Part shown: positions 8,522 through 28,502 of the stretch, piece by piece
How the letters are laid out: every line of letters begins with the position of its first letter
How positions within the stretch are numbered: the first letter of the stretch is position 1
DNA from: Euphorbia lathyris
Lineage: Eukaryota > Streptophyta > Magnoliopsida > Malpighiales > Euphorbiaceae
Reading direction: 5' to 3'
Length of the DNA stretch: 64,000 bases
Assembly: GCF_963576675.1 (NCBI RefSeq)
Contig: NC_088910.1
Coordinates: 62,260,531 to 62,324,530 of the forward strand
The notes under the pieces: model-generated
Told to the model about the DNA's origin: nothing
What the model saw: only the letters and a program-made list of their open reading frames with translations
Databases searched by the model: none
Made by a program: the position numbers and the translations under genes

Positions 8522-8580
8522 GGAGGAGTTTTCAATGGTGAGTCTCCACCCATGGTGAGTCAATAGGTGACCTGCTATAG
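8522..8580 (+). repeat. Left terminal inverted repeat of the giant MULE
   Basis: GGAGGAGTTTTCAATGGTGAG, then TCTCCACCCATGGTGAGTC. It pairs with 28440-28502 read on the other strand. The motif ATGGTGAGTC is itself repeated inside the end. Confidence 0.65.
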
Positions 8581-9571
8581 CAGGTTACCAAGTTACCTAA
8601 ATACATATTTCTCTCTCCATGATAAATACCATTACGTTTTTTAATAAAGGCTATTACGCTTTTTTAAAAAAGGTTTCTCTCACCACATTAAATTCTTCTT
8701 CTTCACCATCGCTATACCGCTGGTGTCTGGTTCTGTAATAATTTTTGTATTAATCTTACTCATGGATACTAAATCCATATCTTTCTTTACGGTCTTTTTA
8801 TGTTAATTTTTCTGATTGATTCGAGATCCGTATCGTTATAATAAATACATATCATTCTTGTTAATTTTTTTCTAGCTGATTCGAAATATATATTGTTAAC
8901 ACCTCTGATTCGAAATATAATACATGGAAGGTATTTCGATTTCCTTTGATTCATAAATCGATTTTGGTTTTTGATTACGACCACCATTTTTATTAGTAAC
9001 TTCATTCAAGTTCATGAAGTTGAAGATAAGCTTATGGATTTAAGTTGATTTATATAATTATGTATTCGGTTAATTTCTGATTTGGGATATACAATTAGAA
9101 TTGGAAATTTGGGATTGGAGTATGATCAAGAAGATGTCTACATGGAAGTGATAAAACTATGGGTATATAAATGTGTTGATGCTTCAATTATGAAAACTGC
9201 AACAATTTGTAACGAGGAATATGATCAAGAAGACGTATACATATTTTGCAGAAATTTGAAACATAAGTATGAAGAAGATGTCTTCTTATGCCATATATAT
9301 CAGAATCGTATAACTATCAATAAAATCTATACTATTTTAACGATGTAATCTCTTTATGTAATATGTCTCACTCAATTGTTCACAATTCTTTCTGATTTGA
9401 GTATGAGTTGCAAATTGTTTAATTAAATGAAAGATATCCTTTTTTTTGTATTGTTTTTTTAAGTTACTAAAAAAATAACAACCATGAGATATAACATTGC
9501 TAAATTATGTTGTAGCTAATATTAAATGAGCAATGAAAAGGTACAACAAGTAAAGATTGACATTCAATGAA
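8581..9571. other. Left subterminal region, no gene
   Basis: It has four spaced copies of a CTGATTCGAAATATA-like motif (8815-8960). Three copies of the element's 12-bp palindrome lie at 9130-9141, 9229-9240 and 9274-9285. A reading frame at 9082-9348 exists only because the repeated motif has no stops; it shows EYDQEDVY twice and resembles nothing I know. Confidence 0.6.
9274..9285. promoter_or_regulatory. Left-end copy of the 12-bp palindrome (GAAGATGTCTTC)
   Basis: It is the exact reverse complement of the two right-end copies (27763-27774 and 27796-27807), so the element carries this site in inverted orientation near both ends. Confidence 0.6.
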
Positions 9572-12136
9572 CTAATCAATATTGCTATTAGAGTTCTCTT
9601 CCAAATCGTCATCCTTAAATTTATGACAATTCCTTGAATCATGACCAGTCCGACGACACGTTTTACAATGGTTAAGAGTATTTCTTTTTCTTTTGGTCTG
9701 GCCTTTGTTTTGGGGTTTTGATGAAGAAGCAACTTGCTTTGATTTCAGCGTACTAGCCACGGTAGGTCGACCCCTTGGTTTGCTAACAGTGGAGTCCAAA
9801 ACAGGATCATGAAACGTTCCTTCAGCATTTTGACGATGTTGGGTCTCGTCCTCTGTGGGGTATTTGGACAATTCCACATTCAATGCAGATACAACTTGCA
9901 TAGCCCTTTGAAAAGATTTGTCTGATTTTGAAGCAAGGCATGAAGTTATACCACAATTCTTTGAAAGTGATCCGTACCTCAAATTTCTAGCTGATTCTGG
10001 ATGAGGGTACTTTCTTTCCTCATGGTTGGTTAAATAATCAAAATTTTTAGCATCTTTCAGCCAACGACGATTGACCAAACAATCAGGGAAATTCAGTATC
10101 TCCAAACTCTTCATAGATGCAAAAATATGTCTGCATGGAATTCCTTTCGTCTCAAATGAATAGCAATCGCATTGAATTGTTGCTCGATCATCAGAAATCG
10201 TAACCGTGCGCTTTGCCACTTTACCCCCGAATGGTTTTACATTACAAACAGCTTGATTCTCCTCACGGTCTATGATGGTAACATATTTTTCCGGGCATTG
10301 CATCTCCCGCTTTATCCTTTTATAAATTTCCCTGGTGAAAATTGAAGAAACATCATCCTCCACACTTGGCATCGAAGTTTGGTTGGGCAATGTTTCGGTC
10401 ATATTGGTTCTATAGTGCTCTTCCATCTCGTTGAAGTGTAACATTGACAGAGAAAACTCAAAGTGTTTGAAAAACTTCCACAATGATACTTTGTTATCCA
10501 AGTCTTTTTTCAACAAAGAATTCATTGACTCGCATCGGCCCGTAGCTTTTGCACCGCCAAAATAATGACCACGAAGAAAAGTGTCTGCCCACTGCTTTCT
10601 AGTTGCATAATGTGCCTCTATCCATGCATTGGCTTCCAAATTGTATTCTTTTACCATCCCATTCCATTTAATCTCCCATTCGGCCTCTTCATAGTATCTA
10701 GTGTGTTACAAAAAAATATAAACCGCGTTATCAGTATTGAAACCTGTAATGAAATTAGTATCAAAGGGATCGTAAACTTAAAACCATAAATATAATTTTT
10801 TTACCTGAAAATAAACTTTCTAAAATCTGTATTGAAACATGAGGCTTTAATATGTGCAACTGCATTTTTCAATATGTGCCACGAGCAAATACGACGTGGA
10901 ATTCCCGGCATTATAGCTTCTAGTGCTTTACTCATTGATCTGCAACCGTCCATTAGTACTATTTTCGGCATCTTGCCATCCATACACCCTAAAAATGTTT
11001 CCAATAGCCAAACATAATTTTCCGCTGTCTCATCTTGGAGGAGTGCAGATCCAAACACACATGTCTTGTCATGATTGTTTGATCCAAGTAGAATAACCAA
11101 TGGTTTTCCGTACCTGTAAGGAGTATTATGAATCAGATACAAAGAAGAGATCCAATAGAAAAAACTTATTAGATTTTATTGTAACTAAGAAGGGGTTTAT
11201 GAAAACATACCTGTTAGTCTTGTAAGTAACATCAAAAGACAAACAATCGCCAAACAATTTGTAATCAATTTGGCAACTCCCGTCAGACCAGAATAAATTT
11301 CTTAGTCGTCTATCCTCATCTACCTCATACTTGTAGAAAAACTTATCATCTGCTCCTTTTTTCGATTCAAGTAAACACATCGCTCTATTTGTGTCGGTAT
11401 CATCCAAATTTGAATTATCTTTTGCAATTGCCCTGTACAGGTCTTTTTTCAGGAATCCTAAATCTTTCCAATTACCATTTACTTCTACAAAGTAATTGTA
11501 ACATTGAAATGTATTAATTCCAGCTCTCTTCATTGAAAATGCTTGCTCCTTAGTAGGATCATCTATTTTTCTGTGAGACCTCAGAAATATTTTTTCGCTC
11601 GATACTGCTAGTTTGTGTGTATGGCTAGTATTGAAGCATTTAACTATCCAATTTTTATTTACCTTATCGATATTAATTCTGAATTCCGCTGCACACATCA
11701 ATCTTGTTACAGGACGTACTTCCCGAATCCTATTTTTTGTATTACAATATTTTGGTTCTCGTTTACCTTCGCATGAGCAAACCCAACTTCTAACAACTAT
11801 ATCATTGTTTTTGTCTTTCCTTTTTAACTTTTTCCTAACACTAAACCCCACCAGCTTTGCATATAACATATAAAAAGACTCAGCTTGTTCAACACTTACA
11901 AGTCTCTTGTTATCGAAGTCCGATAACTGTATATCCATTGGATCTTTGTTGATTTCCAGAAAATCGAGCAGGCTATTCCACTCTTCAATATCTGGTTCGA
12001 TCCATTTTCCATCCGCCCCTGTTTCTACAACCAACTCATCTTCGTTGAGATCGGTCGTCTCTTCCTCATGTCTTCCATCATTACTATTTTGGACATTGCG
12101 GTCTTCACAATCAGCATGCTGTTTTGAGCTCTCCAT
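9572..12136 (-). CDS. FAR1/MURA-type MULE transposase, three exons, apparently intact
   Basis: Exons 12136-11211, 11113-10805 and 10697-9572 join in frame through GT-AG introns to give 786 residues. The N-terminus is acidic. Residues about 85-170 match the FAR1 zinc-binding DNA domain (Cys and His in SWVCSCEGKR, CFNTSHTHKL). The MULE transposase domain has Asp302 (LSFDVTYKTN), Asp364 (IVLMDGCRSM), the CSWH motif, and a Glu candidate in YYEEAEWE near 416-420. The FAR1-family signature GRCESMNSLLKK follows. A SWIM zinc finger (CDCYSFETKGIPCRHIF, about 590-606), a KPRGRP AT-hook-like motif and a CCHC knuckle (CKTCRRTGHDSRNC) end the protein. It would bind the element's ends and cut and rejoin DNA. 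No stop or frameshift was found. Confidence 0.92.
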
Positions 12137-12870
12137 ATTCTTTCAACAATTGTATTTGAAATGAAATTTGTTGATAAAATGTTTACAGTAATCCAATTTA
12201 CCGTTTGTGTTTATTTTAAATTCAAATTTTCACGAGCCCCAACGTTATTAATGGACAGTTGTGTCGACATTAATTACATATTGTAACCCCCCAAAACACC
12301 TCTAATATTAGTATATGTAGAACAATTTCAATAATTTGAATTGGATGGGTTGGTTTGAGTTGTTTCAATTACAAGAGAGAGGTTGGGGTTTCGAACCTCT
12401 TGAATCTCATTTTATTTTTTGAGTCATTTATATATATTTGAACGTATATTTTTAAAAAGAATATGAAATATTAAATTGTGCTTTTATATAAAGACGACTT
12501 TTTAGAACGGTTTCTCTAATTTGCCTCCTATTTATGCAAATAAACTAAATTAAGACATACAAATTGATGTGGGTAAATTATTAATGTTATTAGTCTCACT
12601 AATATTTCATTAACATATTAAAAAGAACGGAGCGAGTCGTTACAATGTTTATGTTAAATATTTTTTATTTTCAAATAAGTGTATTTATTTTAACATAATT
12701 GAATTATTTAAGTAGTGGGGAAATAAGACTTGGCAATTTGTGATGCATTAAGAATAAATAGTAAAAAAAAACATATATCAAAACGATTCCAATTATACAT
12801 ACTACCAATTAATTCGCACGTTGTAATTCATGCACAATAGCTTACAAAAAAACACAATAGCAATTGTAAT
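12137..12870. other. Spacer between transposase and protease genes
   Basis: Upstream region of the transposase gene. A variant of the element motif (AAAGACGACTTTTTA, about 12491-12505) lies about 355 bp before the start codon. No gene is seen. Confidence 0.5.
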
Positions 12871-14324
12871 TTAAATAAATGATTGTGCTTTTTTTAATAG
12901 TTCGGTTTTCCTCTTATTATAGTCCGACTTCGCAATCCACCAAGCTATTCGACATCTTTCTTCATTGGAGTTGAACTACAAAACAAACGGAAGAAAAATA
13001 GAATTAATAAAGTGTAGTGTATTTAAAAAAAATGAATTCTCAATGACTATTATAAATATTACCTGAAAAGTACTTGAATCAACCTAACAATGCTTGATCA
13101 TAAATAAAATCACAAAAACTCCACAGTCGAAATTATTTGGTTGTCTAGGAACATTTCTTCCACGGACAATTGCAAAGCTAGCGAAGTTGTAATTTGCGGG
13201 TTTGCTTTTTAGTTGTTCCTTGAAGCCCATGTCTAACGCGCGTAACTACATTTATTAATATACATTATTTCATAAGAAGATAATAATTGTTTTTTGAACT
13301 GAAGTAGTATTAAAAATCAAATAAAACTTACAATTCCAACAATCAATGTCTTATGATATATTGGTGTGTCGGGACGAGCAAACAAGTCCCAAACTTCTAC
13401 TACTCCCTTGTCAATCATAATCCGGGATAGAATGAAGTGATTTTTATATAAAATAGGGATATAAATCTGATAGACGTCTTCTACATTAGAATTTATATAA
13501 GAATTATATACAAAATTTGAACTTATATCTATGTAGGTGCTTACTTCATTGCACTCGTCAAGTAGACCCATGTAGCGCTCGAAATATCTCATACGTTCCC
13601 AAGATTTGGACAATGGTAGATTATGATGAGGCAAGTGCTCTTTCTGTGTTTGGAGAAATATAAAAGGTTGGTACCAACAATGACATGTAAGTGTATCACA
13701 ACAAAAATAATAATAAAAAAAGCCTACCGTAATTCTTACTGGTAGATACCAGTTTATTTTACCACCATTTTTTGAGGTTGACCTTGCATGTTCTGTCAAT
13801 ATTGATGACACCATTGTAACAACCTGTTAATATGTAAAAAGATCATCATCATATCTTGTATGCAATATTTTAGATATTTATTTACAAATAATACCTCAAC
13901 TTCCAATTCTTCATTTGGTCCGAGAAAACGAAAATCAAACCGACTTAGTGAACAAATATCGGTTTGAGCTATAATTTCACTGTATTAGATGAAATTACAC
14001 ATTTTTTAGAAAATCATAACAACTCCAATGATTAATGTAAAAAGAAATTGCAAAAAGAGTTTTAAAATTATACCTGGAACTTGCATTTGAGAAGATGTAT
14101 TCCAATAAAGGTATTTCTTTAGGAGATGTTTTGTGTTTTAAATTAAAATCTGAAAATGTCACAACTCTAGGAACTTCTGTCTGAAGTTTGTTGTTTACAG
14201 CTTCATTAGTAACTCCATCTATTTGAGAATCACATCTTTTACGGTTAACTGTTGCTTTGATTCGCCTACTCAAAGGTGACACCCTCCTTTCAACTGAACT
14301 TTGCCATTTCTTATCATTAGCCAT
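12871..14324 (-). pseudogene. ULP1-like (C48) cysteine protease, six exons, one premature stop
   Basis: Exons 14324-14074, 13979-13895, 13823-13728, 13643-13332, 13245-13063 and 12975-12871 join with correct phase and GT-AG borders (1032 nt). The catalytic set of SUMO-type proteases is visible: His213 (YKNHFILSR), Asp230 (VEVWDLF), Gln283 and Cys289 (RQPNNFDCGVF). A TAG at 13086-13084 interrupts codon 302, just after the active-site helix. The frame continues normally into the last exon (NEERCRIAWW...), so the stop looks like a later mutation; a protein truncated at 301 might still fold in part. It is probably the counterpart of the ULP-like gene in VANDAL/Kaonashi MULEs. A copy of the 12-bp palindrome lies 317 bp upstream. 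Confidence 0.85.
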
Positions 14325-14640: not shown

Positions 14641-14652
14641 GAAGGCGTCTTC
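14641..14652. promoter_or_regulatory. 12-bp palindrome variant (GAAGGCGTCTTC) upstream of the protease gene
   Basis: One of about 13 copies in the element, 317 bp before the protease start codon. Role inferred from recurrence. Confidence 0.55.
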
Positions 14653-14962
14653 GAATTTATATTTATGGCACCACATAAAAAACTGCACTCATAAAAGTAT
14701 GTTCGGTCAAATTAAAAGATAATATCAGGAAAAAATAGATTTGATAAACAAGCGACTCGAACATGTGATCTGACGGTTAGAATTAGTATGTATTAACAGC
14801 TGAACTAGGAACAATTATTGTCTAGGTTGCATTTAAGAAGTATAACATAAGATACTCGAGTACATCTAAAACAAAATTACAACAAAATAATGGAATTAAG
14901 TTTAAGATAATATAGTTAGGGTGTGGAATTCAAAGTATTAATTAAGTAATAATCATGTGCAA

Positions 14963-17900
14963 TTAATGTCTTATTGTCTTCTATATAAAAAAAAGGTTTT
15001 ATTTCCTTGCATAGGTTTAAATAACGTATCATAACGTGAATAATTAAGTAATAATCACTAGCTCCATGCAAAAGTCCATAGGGTTTCTCAGCTCGTTAGT
15101 CGAACGATTGTATTTTATATTCATCCAATAATATTGTTTTTTTTTAAATTTTGAGGTCATGAAACCTTATCGTAACCTAACACCGTCGGACTTAACGTAT
15201 CTTTGTGTGACTAATGAAGTAAAATTCAAACAATCTCCATGCAAAAGTCCCTAGGGTTTCTCAGCTTGTTATCCGAACGATTGTGATCAATCATTTATCT
15301 AATAATATATTTTTAAAAATCTTGAGGTCATAAAAGCTTATCGTAACCTAATGCCACCAGACGTAACGTATATTGGTGTGACTAATTATATTAATTCAAA
15401 CGATCTCCATACAAAGGTCCCTAGGGTTTCTCAGCTCGTTATCCGAACGATTGTGATCAATCATTTATCTAATAATATTTTTTAAAAACTTTTGAGGTCA
15501 TAAAAGCTTATCGTAACCTAATGCCACCGGACGTAACGTATATTGGTGTGACTAATTAAGTAATAATCACAATCTCCATACAAAAGTCCCTAGGGTTTAT
15601 CAGCTCGCTATTCGAACGATTGTGTTCTATATTTAATTTATCGATCATTTATCTAATAATATATTTTTTAAAAATTTTGATTTGAGGTCATTAAACCTTG
15701 TTGCAACCTAACGCCGTCGGACTTAACGTATCATAATGTGACTAATTACTTTATAATCATGATCTCGATATATAAGTCCATAGGGTTTCTCAGCTCGTTA
15801 TTTAGATGATTATGTTCTATAATTATTTAATAATTATTTTGTTTAATGATACTTTATTTATTTTAATTTGAGGTCAAGAACTCGATATATAAGTTCATGT
15901 AAAAAAATAATCAAATGTATATTGTACCCTCCTCATATCCAATAAAAAAAATTAAAAAATTTTAAGTCAAAGAGCTAGCATGGTTGGAGGAAATCATAAT
16001 TGTAGATAAACTAATTATAGTAGTAGCATTTTATTTAGGCTTTCTTAGATTGGTTTGTTAATCAATTGGTGTTACTATTAATTAATTGCTCCCTTACCTC
16101 AAAATTCGAATGCATTAATTTCACAAATACATTAAATGCAAATCAGAACGCATCCATATGAAACGTGCTCATTAATTAGTAAATGAAGACGTCTTATACT
16201 AAAGAGTAAAATATAATGAAACTTGGGAAAAAAAAATTTGCCAACAAGGGGACTCGAAACAGTGACACACAGATTCATGAGGACGTGTTATACCAACAGA
16301 TCTACGAATAATTACTGTTTTATAATATGGCGGAATTCATAACAAGGTAAACCATAATTCATACAATTAGAAAGATATTAGATTGATTCAATTGCAATTA
16401 AGGTTCGTATTCTTTTTTCCATTAATATTATTATTTCATATGAAAAAAAGTTGCATACATTTTGACATTATAGTTGTTCAAATTTAATTAAGTTCATTAA
16501 TTACAAAATTTGCTGAAAAGGGGAATCGAACATATGACCATAAGATTCAAGGTGAGTCGCTATACCATCAGGACAAGGAGCTATTTCTGTTAATGTTTAC
16601 ACCGACTTATGTAAGATGACTTTCTAATACATTTTGTTTAATAATATTTTCTTTATTTCATGTGAAATTAAGGTCTTATTGCCTTCTATAAAAAAAAAGG
16701 TTTTATTTCCTTGCATAGGTTTAAATAACGTATCATAACGTGAATAATTAAGTAATAATCACGATCTCCATACAAAAGTCCCTAGGGTTTTATCAGCTCG
16801 TTATTCGAACGATTGTATTCTATATTCATCCAATAATATATATTTTATTTTAATTTTGAGGTCATGAAACCTTATCGTAACCTAACACCGTCGTACTTAA
16901 CGTATCTTTGTGTGAATAATTAATTAATAATCATGATCTCAATACAAAAGTCCCTAGGATTTCTCAGCTCGTTAATTGAACGATTGTGTTCTATATTCTA
17001 CATTTATCAAACATTTTTTGTATCATGATTTATAAAAAAAAATTAATTGGAATTTAATCAACGTGAATGTAAAAAATAATCAAATGTATATTGTCCCCTC
17101 CTCATATTCAAAGTTAAAAAAATAAATCTAAAAATATTAAGTCAAAGAGCTAGCATAGTTGGAGGAAAACATAATTATAGTAGTAGTATTTTATTTAGGT
17201 TTTCTTAGCTTGGTTTATTAATCAATTGGTGTTACTATTAATTAATTGCTCCCTTATCTCAAAATTCGAATGCGTTAATTTCACAAATACATTAAATGCT
17301 GATCAGAACGCATCCATATAAAACGTGTTCATTAATTCATAAAGAAAAACGTCTTATAATAAAGAGTAAAATAATATAGGTGAACTTAGGAGAAAAAAAT
17401 TGCCAACAAGGGGACTCGAAACAGTGACCCAAGGATTAATGAGGACGTGTTATACCAACAGATCTACGAATAATGACTGTCGTAAAAAATAGCGTGGAAA
17501 AAGTTGCATACATTTTGACATTATGGTTGTTCAAATTTAATTAAAATAAAAAATTTTAGAATTTGATGAAAAGGGAAATCGAACACATGACCTTAAGATT
17601 CAAGGGGAGTCACTATACCATCAGGACAATGAGCTATTTCTGTTTATGCTTACACCGATTTATCTAAGACGACTTTTTAAATCCTTTTGTTTTAATAATA
17701 TTTTCTTTATTTCATGTGCAATTAAGGTCTTATTGCCTTCTATAAAAAAAGGTTTTATTGCCTTGCGTAGGCTTAAATAACGTACCATAACGTGAATAAT
17801 TAAGTAATAATCACGATCTACATTCGAACGATTGTGTTCTATATTTATCTAATAATATATATTTTTTTAATTTCGAGGTCATGAAACCTTATCGTAACCT

Positions 17901-19160
17901 AACACCGTCGTACTTAACGTATCTTTGTTTGAATAATTAAGTAATAATCACGATCTACATACAAAAGTCCCTAGGGTTTCTCAGCTCGTTATTCGAACGA
18001 TTGTGTTCTATATTTATTTTATCAATCATTTATCTAATAATATATTTTTTTTTTAATTTCGAGGTCATGAAACCTTATCGTAACCTAACACCGTCTTACT
18101 TAACGTATCTTTATTTGAATAATTAAGTAATAATCACGATCTACATATAAAAGTCCCTAGGGTTTCTCAGCTCATTATTCGATCGATTGTGTTCTATATT
18201 CATATAATAATATAGTTTTTTTAACTTTTATTTGAAGTCATGAAACCTTATCGTAATAATCAAGTAATAATTAAGTAATAATCACTAGCTCCATAAAAAA
18301 CTCCCTAGGGTTTCTCAGCTCATTAATTGAACGATTATGTTCTATATTCATCTAATAATATTTTTATTTTAATTTTGAGGTCATGAAAACTTATCGTAAC
18401 CTAACACCATCGGGCTTGACATATCTTGGTTTGACTAATTAAGTAATAATCACGATATCCATACAAAACTCCCTAGGGTTTCTCAGATCGTTATTCGAAC
18501 GATTGTATTCTATATTTATTTTATCAATCATTTATCTAATAATATATATTTTTTTAATTTCGAGGTCATGAAACCTTATCGTAACCTAACACCGTTGTAC
18601 TTAACGTATCTTTGTTTGAATAATTAAGTAATAATCACGAACTACATACAAAAGTCCCTAGGGTTTCTCAGCTCATTATTTGAACGATTGTGTTCTATAT
18701 TTATTTTATCAATCATTTATCTAATAATATATATTTTTTTAATTTCGAGGTCATGAAACCTTATCGTAACCTAACACCGTCGTACTTAACGTATCTTTGT
18801 TTGAATAATTAAGTAATAATCACGATCTACATACAAAAGTCCCTAGGGTCTCTCAGCTCATTATTCGAACGATTGTGTTCTATATTCATATAATAATATA
18901 TTTTTTTTAAATTTGATTTGAAGTCATGAAACCTTGTCGTAATAATCAAGTAATAATTAAGTAATAATCACTAGCTCCATACAAAACTCCCTAGGGTTTC
19001 TCAGCTCGTTAATTGAACGATTGTGTTATATATTTATCTAATAATATTTTTTTTTAATTTTGAGGTCACGAAACCTTATCGTAACCTAAAACCGTCTGAC
19101 GTAATTAATTAATAATCATGATCTCGATATATAAGTCATTATGGTTTCTCAGCTCGTTAT
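14963..19160. repeat. Higher-order tandem repeat array (unit about 150-190 bp)
   Basis: At least 14 diverged units share CCCTAGGGTTTCTCAGCTCG, TTCGAACGATTGTGTTC, then GAGGTCATGAAACCTTATCG, then AATTAAGTAATAATCAC. Clear unit starts lie near 15071, 15251, 15417, 15587, 15777, 16779, 16941, 17967, 18151, 18301, 18470, 18655, 18838, 18988 and 19134. The units are grouped in three larger blocks that each begin with CTTATTGCCTTCTATAAAAA (14969, 16677, 17731) and end with tRNA-like cassettes. No coding potential. Confidence 0.85.
16185..16196. promoter_or_regulatory. 12-bp palindrome copy inside a repeated promoter-like module
   Basis: GAAGACGTCTTA lies about 65 bp after ACAAATACATTAAATGCA. The same pair of sequences recurs at 17283-17356, 19359-19435 and 20298-20372. 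Confidence 0.55.
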
Positions 19161-20535
19161 TTGAATGATTATGTTCTGTAATTATTTTCTCAATCCTTTT
19201 GTTTAATAATATTTTATTTAACATAATAATTATAATAACAATTTATAAATCATAAGGGTTTTTTTTAACTTATAAATATAAATTAATTGGTGTGAATAAT
19301 TGCTCCCTTACCTCAATTTCGAATTCACATTATATATAAAAATATACTGCTTGGATTTTACAAATACATTTAATGCAACATGGATCGCATTTACATGTAT
19401 AATTGGAAAACTAAAACACATATGAAGGCGTCTTCTAATTGGCGAACGCTTACCATATTAAATTAGCAATCCATTTATTTTAACGCCACATTAATGACAT
19501 TCATAAATAGCGCAGTATATAACAAGGAAAACCTTCATACGTACACTCACAAATATATTAGATTGTTTCAATTGCAATTAATGTTCAAATCTTTTTTTTT
19601 CTATTAATATTTATTATTTCGGCATATGGAAAAAGTTGCATACATTTTGACATTATGGTTGTTCAAATTTAATTAAAATAAAAAATTTTAAAATTTGCTG
19701 AAAAGGGGAATCAAACACATGACCTTAAGAATCAAGGGGAGTCACTATACCATCACGACAATAAGCTATTTCTGTTTATGCTTACACCGATTTATCTAAG
19801 ACGACTTTTTAATTCCTTTTGTTTTAATAATATTTTCTTTATTTCATGTGCAATTAAGGTCTTATTGCCTTCTATAAAAAAATGGTTTTATTGCCTTCTA
19901 AATATATTACATTAATTCAATTACAATTAAGGTTCCTTTTTTTATTATTATTACTAATATTATTATTTCAAAGTATCTTATATTAAAAAAGTTGCATACA
20001 ACTTTGACAATATGGTTGTCCAAATTTAATCAAAATCAATAAGCAAAGAAAAATTTGCTGAAAAGGGGAATCAAACACATGACCATAAGATTCAAGGGGA
20101 CTCATTCTACCAAGACGATTTAATTACTGTCATATTTAATCAATAATTTATTTAATAATTATTTTTTTTACCTCACGTAACCTTAGCCTAAACTAATAAT
20201 AATAGTAGTAAATTAGTTAGATTTTGTTATATTATTGGTTTGTTAATCAATTAGTTTTAATAGTAATTAATAGCTCTATTTTCGAATGCATTGACTTCAC
20301 AAATACATTAAATGCAATTCGGAACTCATTCATATCAAACGTGCATATTTACGGACATAGGAAGACGTCTTCTCATAAATTGATTCAACTATAATTAAGG
20401 TTTCAATAATAATAATAATAATAAATACATACTTGTTCGAATTAAAATAATATTTGCCAAAAGAAGGGGACTCGAACACATGATCATTTATTTCAAGGAG
20501 AATTTGTTTTACCAACTGGACAAGGGGCTATTACT
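16240..20535 (-). repeat. Dispersed tRNA-like cassettes (A-box and B-box pairs)
   Basis: Read on the minus strand, each roughly 70-bp cassette has an A-box-like stretch (such as TGTCCAGTTGGTA), about 40-45 bp, and a B-box-like GTTCGAGTCCC. Copies lie near 16240-16316, 16515-16590, 17401-17478, 17570-17640, 19700-19770, 20050-20125 and 20463-20535. Outlying copies are at 14745-14812 and 24890-24955. They resemble SINE heads or tRNA relics. I see no cloverleaf good enough for a working tRNA gene. Confidence 0.6.
20361..20372. promoter_or_regulatory. Perfect GAAGACGTCTTC palindrome
   Basis: A perfect 12-bp copy of the element motif with the ACAAATACATTAAATGCA box about 60 bp before it. Confidence 0.6.
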
Positions 20536-20632
20536 GCTAAGATTAACACCAAATTATTTGAGATTATTGTGTTGTACATAAAAATACCTAAAATGGGAAC
20601 CTTGGTTATGAGGGGAATTGAAGGAGCATGTT

Positions 20633-20975
20633 CAACTGCTAACATGGAATCAAAGTGGTAGAAGACATCCAGAATACGTCGACACCCCTTTCGACCAGAT
20701 AAACAAAACCCAAATGAATAAATAATCAATAACCCGAAACAAAACCCAAATGAATAAATAATCAATAACCCAAAAAAGAACATAAGCAAATTAAAAGAAA
20801 ACATGTTTAAATGCTAACATGGAATCAAAGTGGAAGAAGACATCCAGAATACGTCGGCACCCCTTTCGACCAGATAAACAAAACCCAAATGAATAAATAA
20901 TCAATAACCCGAAACAAAACCCAAATGAATAAATAATCAATCACCCAAATAAGAACATAAGCAAATTAAAAGAAA
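20633..20975. repeat. Tandem duplication (unit about 175 bp)
   Basis: The stretch starting AACATGGAATCAAAGTGG at 20641 recurs at 20816 with few changes. Each unit holds two copies of an AAACCCAAATGAATAAATAA subrepeat. Apparent reading frames across it are repeat artefacts. Confidence 0.9.
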
Positions 20976-21501
20976 AGTAAAGATGAAATCAACTTGATAC
21001 ATAAATGTTTGCTCAACTGATGTCAAAGCTCAATGGGGTACAATTATACAAATGAGTAACTATTGCAGCCCAGGAAGTTTAGACATTAGTTCTTCAAACA
21101 TTTTTTCTTCTCTTGAAGGTATATATGTCTCGCCTAATTTGTGGATTCTCCTCAAGTAGTTTAATAGTTTTTTTTTAGAATACATAACACAGAAGAGAGT
21201 TCCATTTCAGTTATTTATATGTAAATGTCAATGCAGTTGGAGACTCTTCAGTTTCCCATCATCAATGAAAGGAATATAAAAAAAAGGCTGCAACTCTTTA
21301 CGTATAAAAGTGGTAAAATAATTGAGGATGACCAGTTACATCAGTCATCTCCCATTCTCCATTATTGAATATACTAGTAATAACTTAAACAAGTAATATA
21401 GTAATAATAATTTAACTAGAAGATATGATTACACGATATCCATAATGAATCTATATTCAATAATTCAGACAGATGCATCATATAAAGACAGAAAATAATT
21501 A

Positions 21502-21513
21502 AAAGACGTCTTC
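21502..21513. promoter_or_regulatory. 12-bp palindrome copy upstream of the 21741 gene
   Basis: AAAGACGTCTTC lies 239 bp before the start codon and about 135 bp before the TATA box at 21639-21646. Confidence 0.55.
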
Positions 21514-21638
21514 CAGTATTCTTTCGTTTCAAATTTTTAACTTATCATGCATTTATTATACTGCCACATTAATGGCATAAAATCGACCTTGCATTTATTA
21601 TTGTATGAACGAAATTTGAAAAGAATTTTTAGTAGTAG

Positions 21639-21646
21639 TATAAATA
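21639..21646 (+). promoter_or_regulatory. TATA box of the 21741 gene
   Basis: TATAAATA, about 100 bp upstream of the start codon. Confidence 0.6.
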
Positions 21647-21740
21647 AGCTTGAATCGATGGAAATCATTTAAAGTATATCATTGGCTGTCAAAGTTTATC
21701 AATCATTTATCATTTCATCTTCAAATATAATTCATATTCT

Positions 21741-22061
21741 ATGGATAAGTCTGAAAAGCAGATTGGAAACATTATGGGAGAGAATGATGATGTTACTGAT
21801 ACCGATGCCACAAAAGCATTGGCTGATTTTTCAAACATGATTACAAGTTTTAATGATTCATTCGTGGAAGGAGATGCAGATTCAATAATAGACTTCATGC
21901 AGGTGATTGCATCTGCCACAAAATTGATGTATGAGTCAGCGGCTAAATATATGAAATCCGAATTGGAAGAGATTGAGGAGTTGAAGGATGAAGTTGAGGA
22001 GGCGAAGGAGACGTTGAAGGCTTTTAACAAGATGAACAAAGTATTGGATAGGTTGGAATAG
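21741..22061 (+). CDS. Small helical/coiled-coil protein, member 1 of an element-encoded family
   Basis: 106 residues, intronless, acidic. I do not recognise it from any named family. An N-terminal polar part is followed from about residue 40 by a helical region (IIDFMQVIASATKLMYESAA) and a C-terminal heptad-rich coiled coil full of Glu and Lys. The central helix aligns with the frameshifted gene at 23131-23470 (ILKFMKVVLSALVSL...DSM) and more loosely with the gene at 23835-24326. A TATA box and an upstream 12-bp palindrome are in place. A DNA-binding or transposase-partner role, as for VANC or MURB in other MULEs, is inference only. Confidence 0.65.
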   Translation: MDKSEKQIGNIMGENDDVTDTDATKALADFSNMITSFNDSFVEGDADSIIDFMQVIASATKLMYESAAKYMKSELEEIEELKDEVEEAKETLKAFNKMNKVLDRLE

Positions 22062-22209
22062 TCAACTACACATGTTATGTTTGCTTTGTGAGATACCGTA
22101 AACACAGTTTTTATTTTAATGCAAAATAATTTCTTATCTACTGAAGTTTATATTAATAATTGCATTTAAGAGTATATTTGATTTGAGTATATTTTATGTG
22201 TAGTGAGGC

Positions 22210-22920
22210 AATAAAATTTGTAAATACTTCAAATATCCGTTTTTTCATATTACATCTAAAAACTTGTAATTTTAAAGTACGATTTGCATAGGGATAATGA
22301 AAATGTGTTGGTGCTTAAATTGTTAAATTAATTGTGTAGTGAAACAAGTATAATTTGGAAATACCTAAAACATCTATTACTTCATATTACATCTAAAAAC
22401 TTATAATTTTGAAGTACATTATAATTTCGTGATATAGTTGGTTTAACATGAAAAGTTTAATTATATTTAATTAAGATTTGTAATAATTAATATTTAATAA
22501 AGGATATCGTAGGTGTAATTTTATGGACTAATTTTTTTCCGTAGCTCAATTTTTTTTTGGGTTGTCAAAATATTATTCTACTCAAATATAATTTGGAAAT
22601 ACCTAAAACATCTGTTACTTCATATTACATCTAAAAACTTGTAATTTTGAAGTACATTATAATTTCGTGATATAGTCGGTTTAACATGAAAAGTTTAATT
22701 ATATTTAATTAAGATTTGTAATAATTAATATTTAATAAAGAATATCGTAGGTGTAATTTTAAGGACTAATTTTTTTCTGTAGCTCAATTTTTTTTTTGGG
22801 TTGTCAAAATATTACTCTACTCAAATATAATTTGGAAATACCTAATACATTTGTTTCTTCATATTACAATTCGTTATATAATCGGTTTAACATGAAAAGT
22901 TTAATTATATTTAATTGATT
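22210..22920. repeat. Tandem repeat, period about 238 bp
   Basis: AATTTGGAAATACCTAAAAC recurs at about 22352 and 22590, and in diverged form at 22829. A more diverged first unit lies near 22210. Each unit carries TTCATATTACATCTAAAAAC, a TTAACATGAAAAGTTTAATT block and TTGTCAAAATATTA. No gene. Confidence 0.85.
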
Positions 22921-23130
22921 TAACATAATATAAACCTTAATTTTGACATCAATAATTTACAGTTAATAAATATAAAAAAAACATAATATTTCAATATTAG
23001 TGAGATTGTGATGATAGAGAAAACCATAGTACTATTATTGAAAATGAAAAAGAACTGTGTAAACATAAGTAAAACAACAAAAAAAAGTTCCATAAAAAAC
23101 AACAACAAAATAAAGTAAAAGACAAAAACA

Positions 23131-23470
23131 TCACAGTTTATCTATTCTTAAATCCACATTCACATTATGTGCATCATTAATTTTTGCCTTCAGATCTTCC
23201 AGCTTCTTCACCAATTTCTCCTTCTCCTCCATTTTTGACTCAAAATAATCAGCCATTGAATCAGAGAGAAACTAATGCAGATAAAACAACTTTCATGAAT
23301 TTTAGGATTTCATCCTTGTCTCCACGCTTGAGTGCAACTTGTACTCCATTTAGAACACTTTCATAATAAACTCCCAATTGAGTATCATCACTACCCTCAC
23401 TATATTCGCACGTCTTTCTCTTTTTACCTGAGGACTCACCTGCCACGTTACTAAGATTCTCTCCTGACAT
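23131..23470 (-). pseudogene. Small helical protein, member 2, frameshifted
   Basis: Starts MSGENLSNVAGES. The first 69 codons end at a TGA within a TCTCTCTGA stretch. One frame over, the sequence continues as SDSMADYFESKMEEKEKL and a Lys/Glu coiled coil to a stop at 23131-23133. The joined reading aligns along its length with the 21741 gene, so a one-base slip in the TC run is the likely cause. A basic KKRK patch lies near residue 17. TATATAAATAG on the minus strand at about 23531-23542 is 60-70 bp upstream of the start codon. Confidence 0.7.
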
Positions 23471-23708
23471 ATTTATCAGTGATTACAACACTTTGATAGT
23501 GCTATGTGAAATGGTATGCATGGTAAGAGACTATTTATATAGATTAACACACCTTTTCAAATGCACACTACATGTAACTGAAAACTGCTTTTATTTCATG
23601 AATACATTGAATCCAATACGATCTGTATTCAGTTACATTTACCATACCAACATAATGACATTTTAAAAAAGTATTAATACATTGAATACAAAACGGATAC
23701 ATCGAACG

Positions 23709-23720
23709 AAAAGACGTCTC
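23709..23720. promoter_or_regulatory. 12-bp palindrome variant between divergent small genes
   Basis: AAAAGACGTCTC-type copy 240 bp before the minus-strand gene (23470) and 124 bp before the plus-strand gene (23835). It may serve both. Confidence 0.5.
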
Positions 23721-23783
23721 TGTATTTAAGTGTGATTATGAATAGACTTTACAAATTAAGTACATTAATTCCGAAATTTTCTA

Positions 23784-23791
23784 TATAAATA
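23784..23791 (+). promoter_or_regulatory. TATA box of the 23835 gene
   Basis: TATAAATA about 50 bp upstream of the start codon, in a CTATATAAATAGGAG context very like that of the neighbouring minus-strand gene. Confidence 0.6.
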
Positions 23792-23834
23792 GGAGTATGT
23801 AATGCTCTCGAAATGTTATACTCGCTCTTAAAAT

Positions 23835-24326
23835 ATGGACGTGGTAGTACTTTCCGATTCAGTAGATCCTTCCAAAGAGCCTTCCAAAAATGAAGACAAT
23901 TTCCAGCCATACCTATTTGAAGATGATCCTAATGAAGGAATTTCTCCACTCAAAAAAATAAAAGTAGAAAAGTCTAAAAAAGAATCAGTGGGGCCTTCGT
24001 CGCAAAAGAAGAAAAAGGCTCAGCATAAGTTAGATGTGAAGGAAGGGAATACATTCAGGAAGCTTATTATTGGGAAGACTGATGACGGTGTTAATCCCTT
24101 GGGTGCTACTCCATTTCCTTTAAATGAAATTGAAGATGCTGTTCAAAAGTGTGTCAAGAAACATATGCGTCAACATACAGATCAATTCTTATCTACAATC
24201 AAGATCATCGCCAGAGCCTTAAATATTTTGCATGATTCAATGGGTCTTAGTTTGGAGTTGGATTCTGAGGAGATGGAAACTAATGATGATAAGCTGAATG
24301 AAGGGAAAGACAAGAAGGAGATGTAG
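23835..24326 (+). CDS. Small Lys-rich protein, possible member 3 of the family
   Basis: 163 residues, intronless, not recognised. The N-terminus is acidic and Ser-rich; a basic run with nuclear-localisation character (KKIKVEKSKK, then KKKKAQHK) spans about residues 40-65. The C-terminal helix (IIARALNILHDSMGLSLELD) has the same hydrophobic and DSM spacing as the helix of the frameshifted neighbour (VVLSALVSL.DSM), which suggests distant common origin. It ends in an acidic tail. TATA box and palindrome are upstream. Nuclear action is inferred from the basic patch. Confidence 0.6.
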   Translation: MDVVVLSDSVDPSKEPSKNEDNFQPYLFEDDPNEGISPLKKIKVEKSKKESVGPSSQKKKKAQHKLDVKEGNTFRKLIIGKTDDGVNPLGATPFPLNEIEDAVQKCVKKHMRQHTDQFLSTIKIIARALNILHDSMGLSLELDSEEMETNDDKLNEGKDKKEM

Positions 24327-25303
24327 ATCCACAAAAGCATTTGATTGTGAAAAAATGCTTTAATAAGTTTCATATTCTTAATTATGTGTGTCTTGACTTA
24401 CTGTAAGACATTAATTTCAATAATATATATGCAACATTGATTTTCAATATTTTATTTCTTAGTTTCATTATTGGATGATAACTTAATTTTCAAGTAATAC
24501 CTAGGTTACATATATTCCAATTTGTATTGTAATGATAACAATTGCTAATTTTTACAAAAAATTAACCATTCATATAATACCGAATATTAATTCATAAAAA
24601 AATACATTTAATATCAAACTACAATTTGTAAGTAATACCTGAGTTGAATGAATTATAAATTAATGCATTAAAATAAACTATATATAAACAAGATGTTTAA
24701 TTAATTAACAAAATAATTTGAATATAAATACCCAATTTGAACGATTAAAAGTGATAATTTTCAAGTAGTAGCTAATTTGGATGCATTCTAAATAAGTACA
24801 CATAAGAAGACGTCTTCTGATTGTTATTGTTTTTAAAAATGCATTTAAAATAATTTTTAAAACCAATTAAAAAAAATACCACTGGCCGGTTTCGAACACA
24901 GGACCAGATGACTTTTACGATAGTTGCTAACCAGTTGATCTACGAACAATTACTAATTAGATTGATAATTAATATCTTTTAACGTGTTTATAGAATAATC
25001 TGCAAAAATACAAAAAAAGAGCGTGACGTTGGGGTCGAAAACGGGTCGGCTTGTTTAGAGCACCAAACTTACCGCTACAATAGACCGTCTTAGTGATACT
25101 TCTCTCGAATTAAATTGTAACACGTGTTATATGGGGTTTGTTTAATCCTGGAGAAATAGGAACGCCATTGTTTCCGATCAAAATCCTTGAGAAATTCCCA
25201 ATACCGAAACCTAACTTCATCACCGGCGGCATCGATTTTTCCTTACCACTACACAGATTTTCTTTTCATCCTTACTTTCTAAATCTTCAAATTTCAAGCT
25301 CCA
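24327..25303. other. AT-rich spacer, no gene
   Basis: It contains a perfect GAAGACGTCTTC at 24806-24817 (498 bp upstream of the next gene), a tRNA-like cassette near 24890-24955, and a pyrimidine-rich leader just before 25304. Confidence 0.55.
24806..24817. promoter_or_regulatory. Perfect GAAGACGTCTTC palindrome upstream of the 25304 gene
   Basis: Perfect 12-bp copy of the element motif. Confidence 0.6.
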
Positions 25304-26260
25304 ATGGCTAAGACAAGACAGAGTACAGCTGGTTCACGAAGCAAGGGGAAGCAGACATTGCAACCTAAGAGGAAGAACAAGGCTGTAAAAAGGCGTAGAA
25401 CTTGCAATGCCGGAACATCTAGTACCAGAGATAGAGTGGCGAAGCTGGATAGTATGCCTGTGCTCAAAGGTATGCCCATTGATATTGAATCCTTGAAAAG
25501 AATCGATTTTGATGTTTCTCCTTACATTGAGCATTTAAAATTGAGGAAATTGTTGACTCTTAAAGTCAACACATACGATGAATTGGTTAAGGAATTCTAT
25601 AGAAACCTTCATAGGAATAACAGGGGAACAGAGATGTCTTCTAGTGTAAAAAACGTTAAGATCAAAATAGACACTACTTTGTTAAATGAACTTTTTGATA
25701 TGCCTTCGGTTGAGGATGGGTTTTGCATTAAAAACCCAGTTGATAAAAAAATAGAATGGGAGGGGTATAATGATACCCATTTCATAAAGGAAGTCCTACA
25801 CGAGTCTGGTTTACCCCTTGCCACGACAAACATGACGGCTCATGCCCGATTTTTACATCAAGTGGTGATAAAGACACTGCTACCTAAGTATGGTAGCAGG
25901 GAAAAATGCTCATTAGCCGAAAGGATTATTTTGTGGCATCTGTTAAAGGGGAAACAGATGAATTTTGCTCAACAGAATATCTATCACATACTGAACAGGT
26001 TCAGAGCGGTTAAGAAAGACCGTCAAAGGAAAATCCATCTACCTTATGGTAATCTTTTGACGGTAGTCTTTGAACATTACAATGTTCCTGTGACTGTGAG
26101 GGATAACCGGTCAGTCAATACAAATCTCATGGATGATCTATACTTGTTAAGTATGGCAACTATGACGAGTAATAGAGGCTGGATCCTTTCCAAATTTGTC
26201 AGAGCTGAAGATGAAATTGTGTTTGATAAAAAAAACATATTTAAGGAACGTGGGGAATGA
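25304..26260 (+). CDS. Putative plant transposon protein-like gene, probably broken from a longer fusion
   Basis: 318 residues. The N-terminus is strongly basic (KRKNKAVKRRRT). From about residue 70 the layout follows the putative plant transposon protein family (PF20167-like): YDELVKEFYRNL, an LLNELFDMPS box, ARFLHQVVIKTLLP, an AERIILWHLLKGKQMN helix and an LPYGNLLTVVFEHYNVPV segment. Function of the family is unknown. The frame ends at TGA (26258-26260) in a GGGGAATGA context, but acidic coding character continues in other frames into the phosphatase at 26300. The ancestral gene was therefore probably one fusion, now split by two small frameshifts. Confidence 0.65.
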   Translation: MAKTRQSTAGSRSKGKQTLQPKRKNKAVKRRRTCNAGTSSTRDRVAKLDSMPVLKGMPIDIESLKRIDFDVSPYIEHLKLRKLLTLKVNTYDELVKEFYRNLHRNNRGTEMSSSVKNVKIKIDTTLLNELFDMPSVEDGFCIKNPVDKKIEWEGYNDTHFIKEVLHESGLPLATTNMTAHARFLHQVVIKTLLPKYGSREKCSLAERIILWHLLKGKQMNFAQQNIYHILNRFRAVKKDRQRKIHLPYGNLLTVVFEHYNVPVTVRDNRSVNTNLMDDLYLLSMATMTSNRGWILSKFVRAEDEIVFDKKNIFKERGE

Positions 26261-26299
26261 CGGAGAGGATGTTGAGGTTGAGCTGGAAGTGATGGGCAT

Positions 26300-27583
26300 G
26301 TGGATGATGACATAGAAAGTCTGGATGTTGGGATGGATTGTTTTGATTTTGAAGATGAAGATGTTGGGATGGGTGGTGTGGAGATGGAGGGTTCAGAGGA
26401 TACGTTAGAGGCTGATGAGCCAAGACCCGAAGAGTCTGACGAAGAAGAGGAGGATGAGTATGAGATTGTATTCCGGACGGTGGAGCAGCCAGAAAAGGAG
26501 AAAACAATGGAGGAAAAAGTTGATGATGACAGCAATGTTCTGATGCTGTTAACTTACGTTGAAGCTGAACTACCGACACCCTCTTGTCCAATGAAGAAGC
26601 TTCTTATTTTAGACTTGAATAGGGTACTTATATGCTCGCGAACCGGTCACCATCGCCCACATATCACTCCATTCATGAAATTCTGTTTTGATAATTTTAC
26701 GGTTGCAATTTGGTCATCAAAGATGAGGTATTTTTCACATTCTTATAAGGTTCATTGAATTCTAAACATTTGATCCTCTTTTTACATTCTTCTTAAGTTC
26801 ATTGAATACTTTATAATTATAGTGTCTTCTTATGTGTTTTCCAGGAAAAACATTGACAAGATTCTTCCAAAAATTAGAATGTCATTGGCTGATGAAGTTC
26901 AAATGTTGTTTGTTTGGGTTAGACAATTGTTTCCAACTTTTAGGATTCATTTCCGTTCCAACATCAACTAATGAAATATTCATGTTTCCTATATAATAGT
27001 TTACTACACTGTTTGATTTTCAGGGTCAAGAGCATTGTGTTGTAACAAATGTCACATTTGGCCCCCGTGATAAAAAATGTATAATGTTTAAAGATTTGAA
27101 GCATGTTTGGGATAGCTATCCACAATTCAATGCTTCAAATACTGTGTTGATAGATGATTCACCATACAAGTCACTACTGAATTCTGTAAGTGTACCATCT
27201 TTATTACAATTACCCTGTATTATTATGCATTATAATTTCATTTGTTGGATTCTGTAGCCAAACAATTTCATTTACCCCACAACATTTGATTCAAAGAACA
27301 GATTGGACAATTATCTAGGTAAAGCTTCCTGTCAATATCTATGTACTTTATTTACCAAAATGTTCATCTAACTAAAATAATGCAATTTGCAGAGCCAAAT
27401 GGAGGTTTTGTAACCTATTTGGAAAGACTATCACGCGCACAACACGTTGCAGAATTCATCCAGAGGGAACGAATCGGTCAAGATCCCATTCGAGAGGATG
27501 ATGGGCGAATGGCTAAACTACAACAAGCTATAGATTATGCTATGGCATATGGAAGATGGCAAAAAATACTTTGTCAAATGTAA
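26300..27583 (+). CDS. FCP1/NLI-interacting-factor-like phosphatase domain, five exons
   Basis: Exons 26300-26727, 26845-26917, 27024-27185, 27258-27318 and 27393-27583 join in phase with GT-AG introns (about 305 residues). After a long acidic stretch (DEEEEDEYEI), the HAD-type phosphatase begins at KKLLILDLNRVL, where the first Asp-x-Asp of the active site reads DLN. It continues through FTVAIWSSK, a WGQEHC segment and the motif VLIDDSPYKSLLN, and ends with a family-like tail (GGFVTYLERLSRAQHVAEFI). Family members dephosphorylate Ser/Thr, best known on RNA polymerase II. The second acidic catalytic residue of motif I is Asn here, so activity is doubtful. It is probably a captured host gene or part of a fusion with 25304. 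Confidence 0.75.
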
Positions 27584-27762: not shown

Positions 27763-27807
27763 GAAGACATCTTCTTTGTAGTATTTAACACATAAGAAGA
27801 CATCTTC
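27763..27807. promoter_or_regulatory. Two right-end copies of the 12-bp palindrome
   Basis: GAAGACATCTTC at 27763 and 27796, 33 bp apart. Reverse complement of the left-end copy at 9274. Confidence 0.6.
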
Positions 27808-28105
27808 GTTTGACAATATATTCTATACGCTAAAAGGTAACACCAAATTATAATACATCATTTTTTTTACATTGTTTACTTATCACAAATATTTACTCAT
27901 ATCCAAATGACACAGATGACTGGAATTTCGGCTATGCTTCATATTTGATTGATAATAAGACAACTTCTTATGTATATTCTCTAATATGATATCGAAACAA
28001 CATTTTATTACATTGCATTTTCAATCCATTTATTTATCAATGAGGATTGAAATAGAGTGGTAAACGATTAATCTAAAACTAAGATTAGTTCTGGTCGAAT
28101 AGAGG

Positions 28106-28215
28106 CTGCCTGAGATTAATTCCGATCACTTTGAGACTGCCTGAGATTAATTCCGATCATTTTGACACTGCCTGAGATTGATTCCGGTATAAAAAAGTCT
28201 GCCTGAGGTTGATTT
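28106..28215. repeat. Four direct repeats, period 31 bp
   Basis: CTGCCTGAGrTTGATT units at regular 31-bp spacing near the right end of the MULE. Confidence 0.9.
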
Positions 28216-28439
28216 AGCGTCGTCAATGGCTGCCATGAGAGAGAAATCGTATTCCTTCGGTTGCACAATTCAACGTTATGCATTAATTTGGAAAGAGAAA
28301 GAGAAGATGATATTAATTGATGTGAGAGAATTCGGTTTTTAAAATGCAAAAAGTTTTAAATTACAACCTACATGTCAGCAGGTAAAACCTTTTTAATATT
28401 AAATGCCAACTTAAATTATGGACCATTAGATCTTGATCC

Positions 28440-28502
28440 AATGGATATTAATTGCTCACCACCTATGGAGATAATTTAGTGCTCACCATTAAAACTAACC
28501 CC
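28440..28502 (-). repeat. Right terminal inverted repeat of the giant MULE
   Basis: On the minus strand it reads GGGGTTAGTTTTAATGGTGAG and then TCTCCATAGGTGGTGAGCAAT, matching the left end with one extra stretch of about 9 bases. Confidence 0.6.

Follow-up and report, generated by a model that had tools for sequence, protein, structure and literature searches.

A Mutator-like element of Euphorbia lathyris that may switch on its accessory genes together through a shared palindrome

Sequence-specific anti-silencing by transposons has, in the literature considered here, been worked out for the VANDAL elements of Arabidopsis, in which the VANC domains correspond to DUF1985/DUF287 (PMC5735166). 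Jittery-like Mutator-like elements (MULEs) form multi-copy families, such as Jitvine-1 (11.9 kb) and Jitvine-2 (14.4 kb), and ULP domains are reported without being assigned, in the account considered, to a particular family (PMC2528002). In general, a Jittery/FAR1-type transposase is one with an N-terminal FAR1 domain and a C-terminal SWIM or CCHC domain (PMC6446971, Table 1).

The window analysed here is a 64,000-nt stretch of Euphorbia lathyris (NC_088910.1), and one copy of an element, at window positions 8522-28502, is under study. By its sequence, this region reads as one 20-kb MULE of the FAR1-type branch, Jittery-like by its domains (Table 1). The two ends have in common AGTTTT[C]AATGGTGAG, with 15 matches and one gap over ~21 bp (14 of the first 20 bases when compared ungapped), at P = 0.00245 against 20,000 random 60-mer pairs from the window. 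Terminal inverted repeats span 14-500 bp in MULEs, so that these are short though inside the span, and 39-292 bp in the plant Jittery group, or are lacking there, so that ~21 bp falls between (PMC6446971 and its Table 1). AATGGTGAG occurs three times in the 64 kb (8534 +, 28482 -, 56029 +) and nowhere inside the element beyond the two end copies. A second ATGGTGAG lies at 8552 at the left end and a second GGTGAGC at 28454 at the right end. Only four (AT)n runs of at least 12 bp are present in the window, and two of them abut the ends; the 12 bp just outside are the same on both sides (ATATATATATAT). They are compatible with an 8- or 10-bp target site duplication, 8-11 bp being the size expected for MULEs, but a duplication here is indistinguishable from a microsatellite repeat because both flanks are AT microsatellite. 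GC content is 30.9% in the element against 36.9% outside it. One self-contained element with a common cis motif is well supported by these ends, the AT flanks and a palindrome, GAAGACGTCTTC, that is limited to the element in the window and present near both ends; together with the transposase, these features bear out the 20-kb MULE between matching inverted ends that the sequence-only reading had proposed.

Table 1. Features of the element and its flanks (window positions).
Feature	Position	Strand	Details
(AT)n flank, left	8500-8521		directly outside left terminal inverted repeat
Left terminal inverted repeat	8522..8542	+	GGAGGAGTTTTCAATGGTGAG; local match to right end, P 0.00245
Palindrome copy near left end	9274..9285	+	GAAGATGTCTTC; ~0.75 kb from end; in open frame, may be coding
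Transposase gene	9572..12136	-	exons 12136-11211, 11113-10805, 10697-9572; 786 aa, open
ULP1-type cysteine protease gene	13084..14324	-	301 aa, open; Peptidase_C48 2.8e-10; five exons: 14324-14074, 13979-13895, 13823-13728, 13643-13332, 13245-13084 (last exon end set by counting codons)
Palindrome copy upstream of ULP	14641..14652	+	GAAGGCGTCTTC; 317 bp
Nine related tRNA-like (A-box/B-box) blocks	14729..24955	9/9 on -	~93 bp each; starts 14729, 16226, 16498, 17389, 17549, 19681, 20042, 20444, 24865
Tandem array	14953..19292	.	15 units, spacing 148-190 bp, two gaps of ~1 kb; core TCCCTAGGGTTTCTCAGCTC
Palindrome copy	16185..16196	+	inside promoter-like block 16007-16220
Palindrome copy	19424..19435	+	flanks similar to upstream sites of S1 and S2/S3
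Perfect palindrome copy	20361..20372	+	inside promoter-like block 20189-20398
Palindrome copy upstream of S1	21502..21513	+	AAAGACGTCTTC; 228 bp
Small gene S1	21741..22061	+	106 aa, acidic, predicted helical/coiled-coil
Small gene S2	23131..23470	-	S1 paralogue; reading frame broken in examined copy
Degenerate palindrome (3 mismatches)	23710..23721	+	between divergent S2 and S3; their sole common site
Small gene S3	23835..24326	+	163 aa, probable distant paralogue; lysine-rich stretch
Perfect palindrome copy upstream of TN	24806..24817	+	487 bp
Transposase_32 (PF20167) protein, TN	25304..26260	+	318 aa, strongly basic; Pfam 2.9e-19
NIF/UBLCP1-like phosphatase domain	26291..27583	+	exons 26291-26727, 26845-26917, 27024-27185, 27258-27318, 27393-27583
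Two palindrome copies near right end	27763..27807	+	at 27763 and 27796, 33 bp apart; GAAGACATCTTC; ~0.7 kb from end
Right terminal inverted repeat	28482..28502	-	GGGGTTAGTTTTAATGGTGAG as reverse complement
(AT)n flank, right	28503-28526		directly outside right terminal inverted repeat

Most of the genes read from the letters agree with the models obtained here. The predicted transposase carries FAR1 (Pfam 1.8e-15), MULE (PF10551, 6.3e-24) and SWIM (1.5e-5) domains, and by eye the D..D..E positions of the MULE domain and, after SWIM, a C-terminal CX2CX4HX4C knuckle can be located. The MULE domain and the inverted ends are those of a MULE, and the domain order is that of the Jittery/FAR1 type. 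The ULP1-like protease likewise stands: a Peptidase_C48 gene lies inside the element, as in ULP-MULEs, with the predicted catalytic set H, D, Q, C present as read by eye, and its protein had no match among PDB sequences at E ≤ 10. The plant-transposon-protein-like gene corresponds to TN (pI 9.9, charge +23). The domain beside it does resemble a phosphatase (NIF, Pfam 8.4e-14; 1.2e-8 to PDB 3shq, UBLCP1), but its frame is cut off from that of TN by three in-frame stops. The catalytic motif of an active NIF/FCP-type phosphatase is DxDx(T/V). Here DLNRV replaces it, aligned to DIDYT of 3shq, so that this mark of an active enzyme is missing. Pack-MULE cargo consists of host gene fragments; the NIF domain, with its resemblance to UBLCP1 in the PDB comparison, is a candidate for such a fragment.

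Three related small proteins had also been proposed. S1 and S2 are homologous (BLASTP 4e-9; shuffle z 10.3, 0/2000) and S3 is a probable third member through S1 (z 6.2, 0/2000), but S2-S3 similarity is weak (z 2.9, 32/2000) and the S2 frame is broken. Changes between S1 and S2 fall on codon positions 1, 2 and 3 in 39, 27 and 43 of 78 codons, fewest at position 2 (chi-square P 0.028). A single-sequence prediction for S1 (mean pLDDT 75, pTM 0.38) gives short helices and one 60-residue helix, with no fold match in the PDB at E ≤ 10 and only sub-threshold matches in a Pfam scan. The small proteins are unlikely to be DNA binders because they are acidic (S1 has charge -14.5 and pI 4.25, and S2 and S3 likewise are acidic overall), with weak counter-evidence in a sub-threshold match of S1 to HTH_60, a family of helix-turn-helix domains (E 0.019; 15.8 bits where the cut-off is 24.1). 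Thus, the idea that these three proteins act on the palindrome finds no support. Since S2 and the TN-NIF junction are interrupted, not every gene of the examined copy is intact, and this copy may no longer be fully autonomous, though the transposase and ULP frames are open.

GAAGACGTCTTC is the commonest of 3648 palindromes in the element, the next having three copies. With at most one mismatch it occurs nine times in the 64-kb window against 0.06 expected, always in the element's 20 kb and never in the other 44 kb; with at most two mismatches there are 13 copies against 1.53 expected, again all inside. A copy with at most one mismatch lies within 500 bp upstream of three of the six genes (ULP, S1 and TN), S2 and S3 have the degenerate site alone, and the 2.5 kb upstream of the transposase contain none. 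An upstream palindrome common to nearly every gene, as had been stated, is therefore too strong a claim; it is here that the sequence-only reading goes too far, while its element, genes and motif copies largely hold. Five of the 13 copies are possibly coding, two of them within ULP exons (13470 and 14091) and three (9130, 9229 and 9274, the last being one of the nine) in a single 89-codon open frame at the left end. The TTATG flank of 9274 mirrors that of 27796 as an inverted pair.

That the palindrome is found, in the window, inside the element alone suggests that the element may activate its genes in concert. The explanation preferred here is tentative, with a probability of about 0.42: the region would be one MULE in which ULP, S1, S2/S3 and TN are co-switched by a dimeric protein that recognises GAAGACGTCTTC specifically, the transposase being driven by a promoter of its own. 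From established knowledge, the transposase would recognise the ends, perhaps through the repeated GGTGAG, and move the element by cut and paste. The likeliest binder would be the basic TN protein or the FAR1 domain, which are better candidates than the small proteins on charge alone. By analogy, the ULP protein is also a candidate, since in some VANDALs the VANC genes include a ULP1 domain (PMC13317346). The acidic coiled-coil proteins could serve as oligomerising partners, ULP1 and the phosphatase-like domain might act on host chromatin or silencing proteins, and the tandem array could form a further platform, similar to a VANC target. Against this explanation stand the single copy, the lack of a palindrome at the transposase, the shortness of the end match, the masking of any target site duplication, the position of 9274 in an open frame, the broken frames and the partial duplication of the palindrome copies, which slightly lowered its probability.

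This last point leads to a rather unlikely alternative, in which the MULE has ordinary captured or nested cargo, duplicates of a single ancestral promoter account for the palindrome and promoter-like blocks, and co-regulation is absent. The accessory genes would be passengers, NIF derived from a gene of the host and TN from an Athila-like retrotransposon; an extra ORF of Athila is known to contain Transposase_32 (PMC11728184), gene capture is frequent in MULEs (PMC13317346), the array is plainly duplicated, and broken frames would fit. The flanks at 16185, 17345 (a diverged counterpart of 16185 with three mismatches), 19424 and 20361 duplicate one another. The S1 and S2/S3 sites have flanks resembling that of 19424 (P 0.0003), and the flanks of the ULP and TN sites show weak similarity to array blocks (P 0.013-0.04, uncorrected). 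Of the 45 flank pairs, 17 are closer to each other than 95% of pairs drawn at random from the element (P ≤ 0.05), and 8 closer than 99%; the nine copies are thus not independent events. Nevertheless, at the right end and in most pairs outside the array blocks the 12-mer is kept while flank similarity is weak or absent, 27796 appearing in none of the 16 pairs listed among those 17. The conservation of codon position 2 between S1 and S2 also argues against mere passengers.

Plant bZIP proteins bind ACGT-core boxes, and GACGTC is the C-box. It is unlikely, but conceivable, that within one MULE the palindrome is a site for a host transcription factor, such as one of these, so that regulation is borrowed and no element protein binds. 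GACGTC is kept in four of the nine copies (16185, 20361, 21502, 24806), and TATA-like boxes were read by eye downstream of the S1 and S2/S3 sites. By contrast, the other five (9274, 14641, 19424, 27763, 27796) have a broken ACGT core yet preserve the outer GAAG and CTTC, and some copies sit close to the two ends, away from any obvious promoter.

The tandem array is interrupted by promoter-like and tRNA-like blocks, the latter without a tRNA match in Rfam or ARAGORN, and the palindrome sits outside its units. Its best 20-bp core is 96% identical across the 15 units, above all 2000 of 2000 column permutations, in a comparison biased towards the core because the units were anchored near it. By analogy with VANC21, which often targets non-coding tandem repeats (PMC5735166), and with the VANC genes that include ULP1 (PMC13317346), this core rather than the palindrome might be the VANC-like target, bound by the TN or ULP protein to undo silencing. 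This is quite unlikely, given the anchoring and the Pfam scans of ten sequences, which gave no DUF1985/DUF287 match at E ≤ 1; the VANC protein that marks VANDALs was thus not found. Finally, a composite 20 kb whose two ends stem from different elements, as the limited end match might allow, is highly improbable: palindrome copies with mirrored CATAAGAAGACATCTTC lie at similar distances from the ends, an AT run flanks each end, and the interior has no further AATGGTGAG.

The most far-reaching form of the preferred explanation is improbable: independently of VANDAL/VANC, a FAR1/Jittery-lineage transposon would have evolved an operator, GAAGACGTCTTC, together with a self-encoded binder that co-switches the accessory genes and labels the two subterminal regions, while the coiled-coil partners, the ULP1 protease and a pseudophosphatase would be directed against host silencing. 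If true, an element-wide operator in another MULE lineage, alongside other accessory genes, would show whether self-regulation evolved more than once, and the palindrome is a motif open to direct binding and methylation assays.

As described in the sources considered, VANDAL/Hiun elements with VANC resemble this one in being multi-gene MULEs that have tandem repeats in their non-coding DNA as well as a short recurring motif, but theirs is YAGTATTAY and not GAAGACGTCTTC (PMC5735166, PMC10398659). Here the transposase carries FAR1, a DUF1985/DUF287 protein was not found and anti-silencing is putative; of the VANDAL-like logic with different parts that had been suggested, one element with a common cis motif survives, without a VANC domain or the small proteins as actors. 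VANC targets in VANDAL21 are often tandem repeats (PMC5735166), whereas the array units here are devoid of the palindrome. KAONASHI-type MULEs share the ULP1 protease domain, but KI elements are non-TIR with ULP in reverse to mudrA, whereas here short TIRs are present and the orientation is the same (PMC13317346, PMC2528002). In MAIL3 and VvMAIL2.2 a TE-related domain also adjoins a phosphatase domain, but the pair is PMD-PP7 instead of Transposase_32 and a NIF/UBLCP1-type domain with discontinuous frames and a degenerate motif (PMC7156037). The three-ORF Abermu of barley is similarly large, with extra ORFs, one in opposite orientation, but is sister to MuDR-related elements, with TIRs of 138-145 bp and a 9-bp TSD (PMC9168764). 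The grapevine ULP-bearing Jittery-like MULEs (and those of melon, as cited there) share the Jittery-type transposase, the ULP1 domain and large size; ULP is downstream of the transposase there and upstream, on the same strand, here, and that account, as far as considered, mentions none of S1-S3, Transposase_32, NIF, the palindrome family or the tandem array (PMC2528002). Thus, while ULP-bearing Jittery-like MULEs were already known, the cargo and palindrome of this element look new.

The putative Mutator-like element (MULE) described here is taken as a single element; its anatomy and motif statistics were read directly from the DNA, while its gene models are sequence-based predictions (see the table). 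Its left and right ends have in common AGTTTT[C]AATGGTGAG, in both cases adjoining (AT)n. The match is short, with 14 of the first 20 bases identical without gaps, and its score is reached by only 0.245% of 20,000 random pairs of 60-mers from the window. In addition, two of the four AT runs of at least 12 bp in the window adjoin these ends, and there are palindrome sites in mirrored context at 9274, about 0.75 kb from the left end, and at 27796, about 0.7 kb from the right one. The proposal of the sequence-only reading that matching inverted ends delimit one element is well supported. The 12 bp that adjoin the two ends on the outside are identical, yet they lie inside the microsatellite. GC content is 30.9% in the element versus 36.9% outside, and self-comparison of the window (E ≤ 1e-8, matches >60 bp) revealed neither a second copy nor an empty site. 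Outside the element, AATGGTGAG occurs only at 56029, within a different dispersed repeat.

Features of the element and of neighbouring repeats, in window coordinates
Feature	Position	Strand	Description
Element	8522-28502
Transposase		minus	786 aa, FAR1-MULE-SWIM; open model
ULP1-type protease (ULP)		minus	five exons, upstream of transposase; open model
Small gene S1		plus	past 6-kb non-coding region
Small gene S2		minus	past 6-kb non-coding region
Small gene S3		plus	past 6-kb non-coding region
Transposase_32 (PF20167) protein (TN)		plus	past 6-kb non-coding region
UBLCP1-like phosphatase domain (NIF)		plus	past 6-kb non-coding region
Tandem array	14953-19292		15 units, spacing 148-190 bp save two gaps of ~1 kb
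tRNA-like blocks	14729-24955	minus	nine blocks with A-box/B-box-like pairs, among or near array units
Open frame	9079-9348		89 codons, repeated EYDQEDVY peptide
Tandem repeat	28102-28186		31 bp, 2.7 copies, just within right end
Direct repeats	1729-3343; 5591-7226		97.4% identical, ~1.6 kb each, 2.2-kb interior; resemble LTRs of a short retroelement
Direct repeats	36590-38395; 44231-46038		95.6% identical, ~1.8 kb each; resemble LTRs

The 12-bp palindrome GAAGACGTCTTC is present, at no more than one mismatch, in nine copies in the window (0.06 expected), all nine of them in the element. The next best of 60 palindromes with the same half composition has one copy in the window and, among 3648 12-bp palindromes (GC ≥ 4), the runner-up in the element has three. 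Allowing two mismatches gives 13 matches, five of them possibly coding: two fall in ULP exons and three, including 9274, share one open frame at the left end. Palindrome-like matches at 9130, 9229 and 9274 arise from the codons of the EYDQEDVY peptide, whose frame is a possible gene fragment. It had been claimed that nearly all genes share an upstream palindrome; this stands for S1, ULP and TN (at 228, 317 and 487 bp, respectively), is reduced to one common, degenerate three-mismatch site for S2 and S3, and fails for the transposase, which has no palindrome within 2.5 kb upstream.

These copies are not independent. Wide flanks are common to those at 16185, 17345, 19424 and 20361, flanks at the S1 and S2/S3 sites are similar to those of 19424 (P 0.0003), and those at the ULP and TN sites show a weak likeness to array blocks; of the 45 flank pairs, 17 are similar at P ≤ 0.05 and eight at P ≤ 0.01. 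Judging by sequence, several genes seem to have received copies of a single ancestral promoter module in which the 12-mer was retained. Such a pattern fits a regulon, in which the accessory genes would be switched jointly through the palindrome, and also plain duplication. On account of this flank similarity, the odds of the regulon readings are reduced, and those of a duplicated promoter with captured cargo and no co-regulation are increased.

The genes themselves differ in preservation. Composition-matched random DNA would give 0.07 ATG open reading frames of at least 106 aa per 12 kb, and frames of 163 or 318 aa appeared in none of 60 simulations. By sequence, S1 and S2 are clear paralogues. 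Over 78 codons they show 39, 27 and 43 changes at positions 1, 2 and 3, with position 2 fewest (P 0.028). The S2 frame is broken. S3 is their probable paralogue, S2-S3 similarity being weak when taken alone (32 of 2000 shuffles). A tblastn search with S1-S3 for remnants in 14.4-20.6 kb, covering the array, gave no match below E 1. Read in the TN frame, the stretch between TN and NIF contains three stops. The NIF model has four GT-AG introns, and UBLCP1 (3shq, 1.2e-8) is the sole protein in PDB that it matches at E ≤ 0.1; since DLNRV aligns where 3shq has DIDYT, the domain is probably inactive as a phosphatase.

In the array, core identity is 96% over 20 bp, the units being anchored near that very core. 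Five of the nine tRNA-like blocks begin no more than about 100 bp downstream of a palindrome site, which in one case is diverged. Exact B-box patterns are in excess in the element, with four copies of GTTCGANNCC versus 0.21 expected and eight of TTCGANNCC versus 1.0 (100 simulations). A/B-box pairs number 13 at a loose threshold, equal to the maximum of 40 simulations (mean 6.6), and 76 at a second, above the maximum of 70 in 20 simulations (mean 60.5); copies are partly duplicated, so these counts are not independent. E-values of the nine block matches are circular, the model having been built from these same sequences. As a weaker relative occurs outside the element at 34669-34720 (E 5.8e-4), the blocks may be a tRNA-derived host repeat. 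Genuine tRNA genes or a known RNA were rejected: none were found by ARAGORN, Rfam gave no tRNA match, and the blocks have no consensus fold.

A protein of the element may bind the palindrome, and co-regulation and anti-silencing are proposed. The earlier suggestion that the small proteins act on the motif is rejected as the leading option, since S1-S3 are all net acidic and S1 is predicted to be helical/coiled-coil without a fold match; a sub-threshold helix-turn-helix match in S1 points weakly the other way. On charge, the FAR1 domain or the strongly basic TN (pI 9.9) would be better candidates; single-sequence structure prediction of TN gave a mean pLDDT of 33.7, too low to use. By analogy (PMC13317346), ULP is an additional candidate.

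Among the titles listed in keyword searches of the open-access literature, none reported a MULE that has Transposase_32 or NIF genes. Jittery-like MULEs that carry ULP have been described in grapevine, with melon cited in the same paper (PMC2528002), and Table 1 of PMC6446971 gives a single ORF for plant members of the Jittery group. On sequence grounds, we call the element, seen in one copy, a variant of the known ULP-carrying Jittery-like MULEs. Although the VANC domains characteristic of VANDAL/VANC were not found in its proteins by Pfam scans, that system (PMC5735166; PMC10398659) offers the closest functional analogy.
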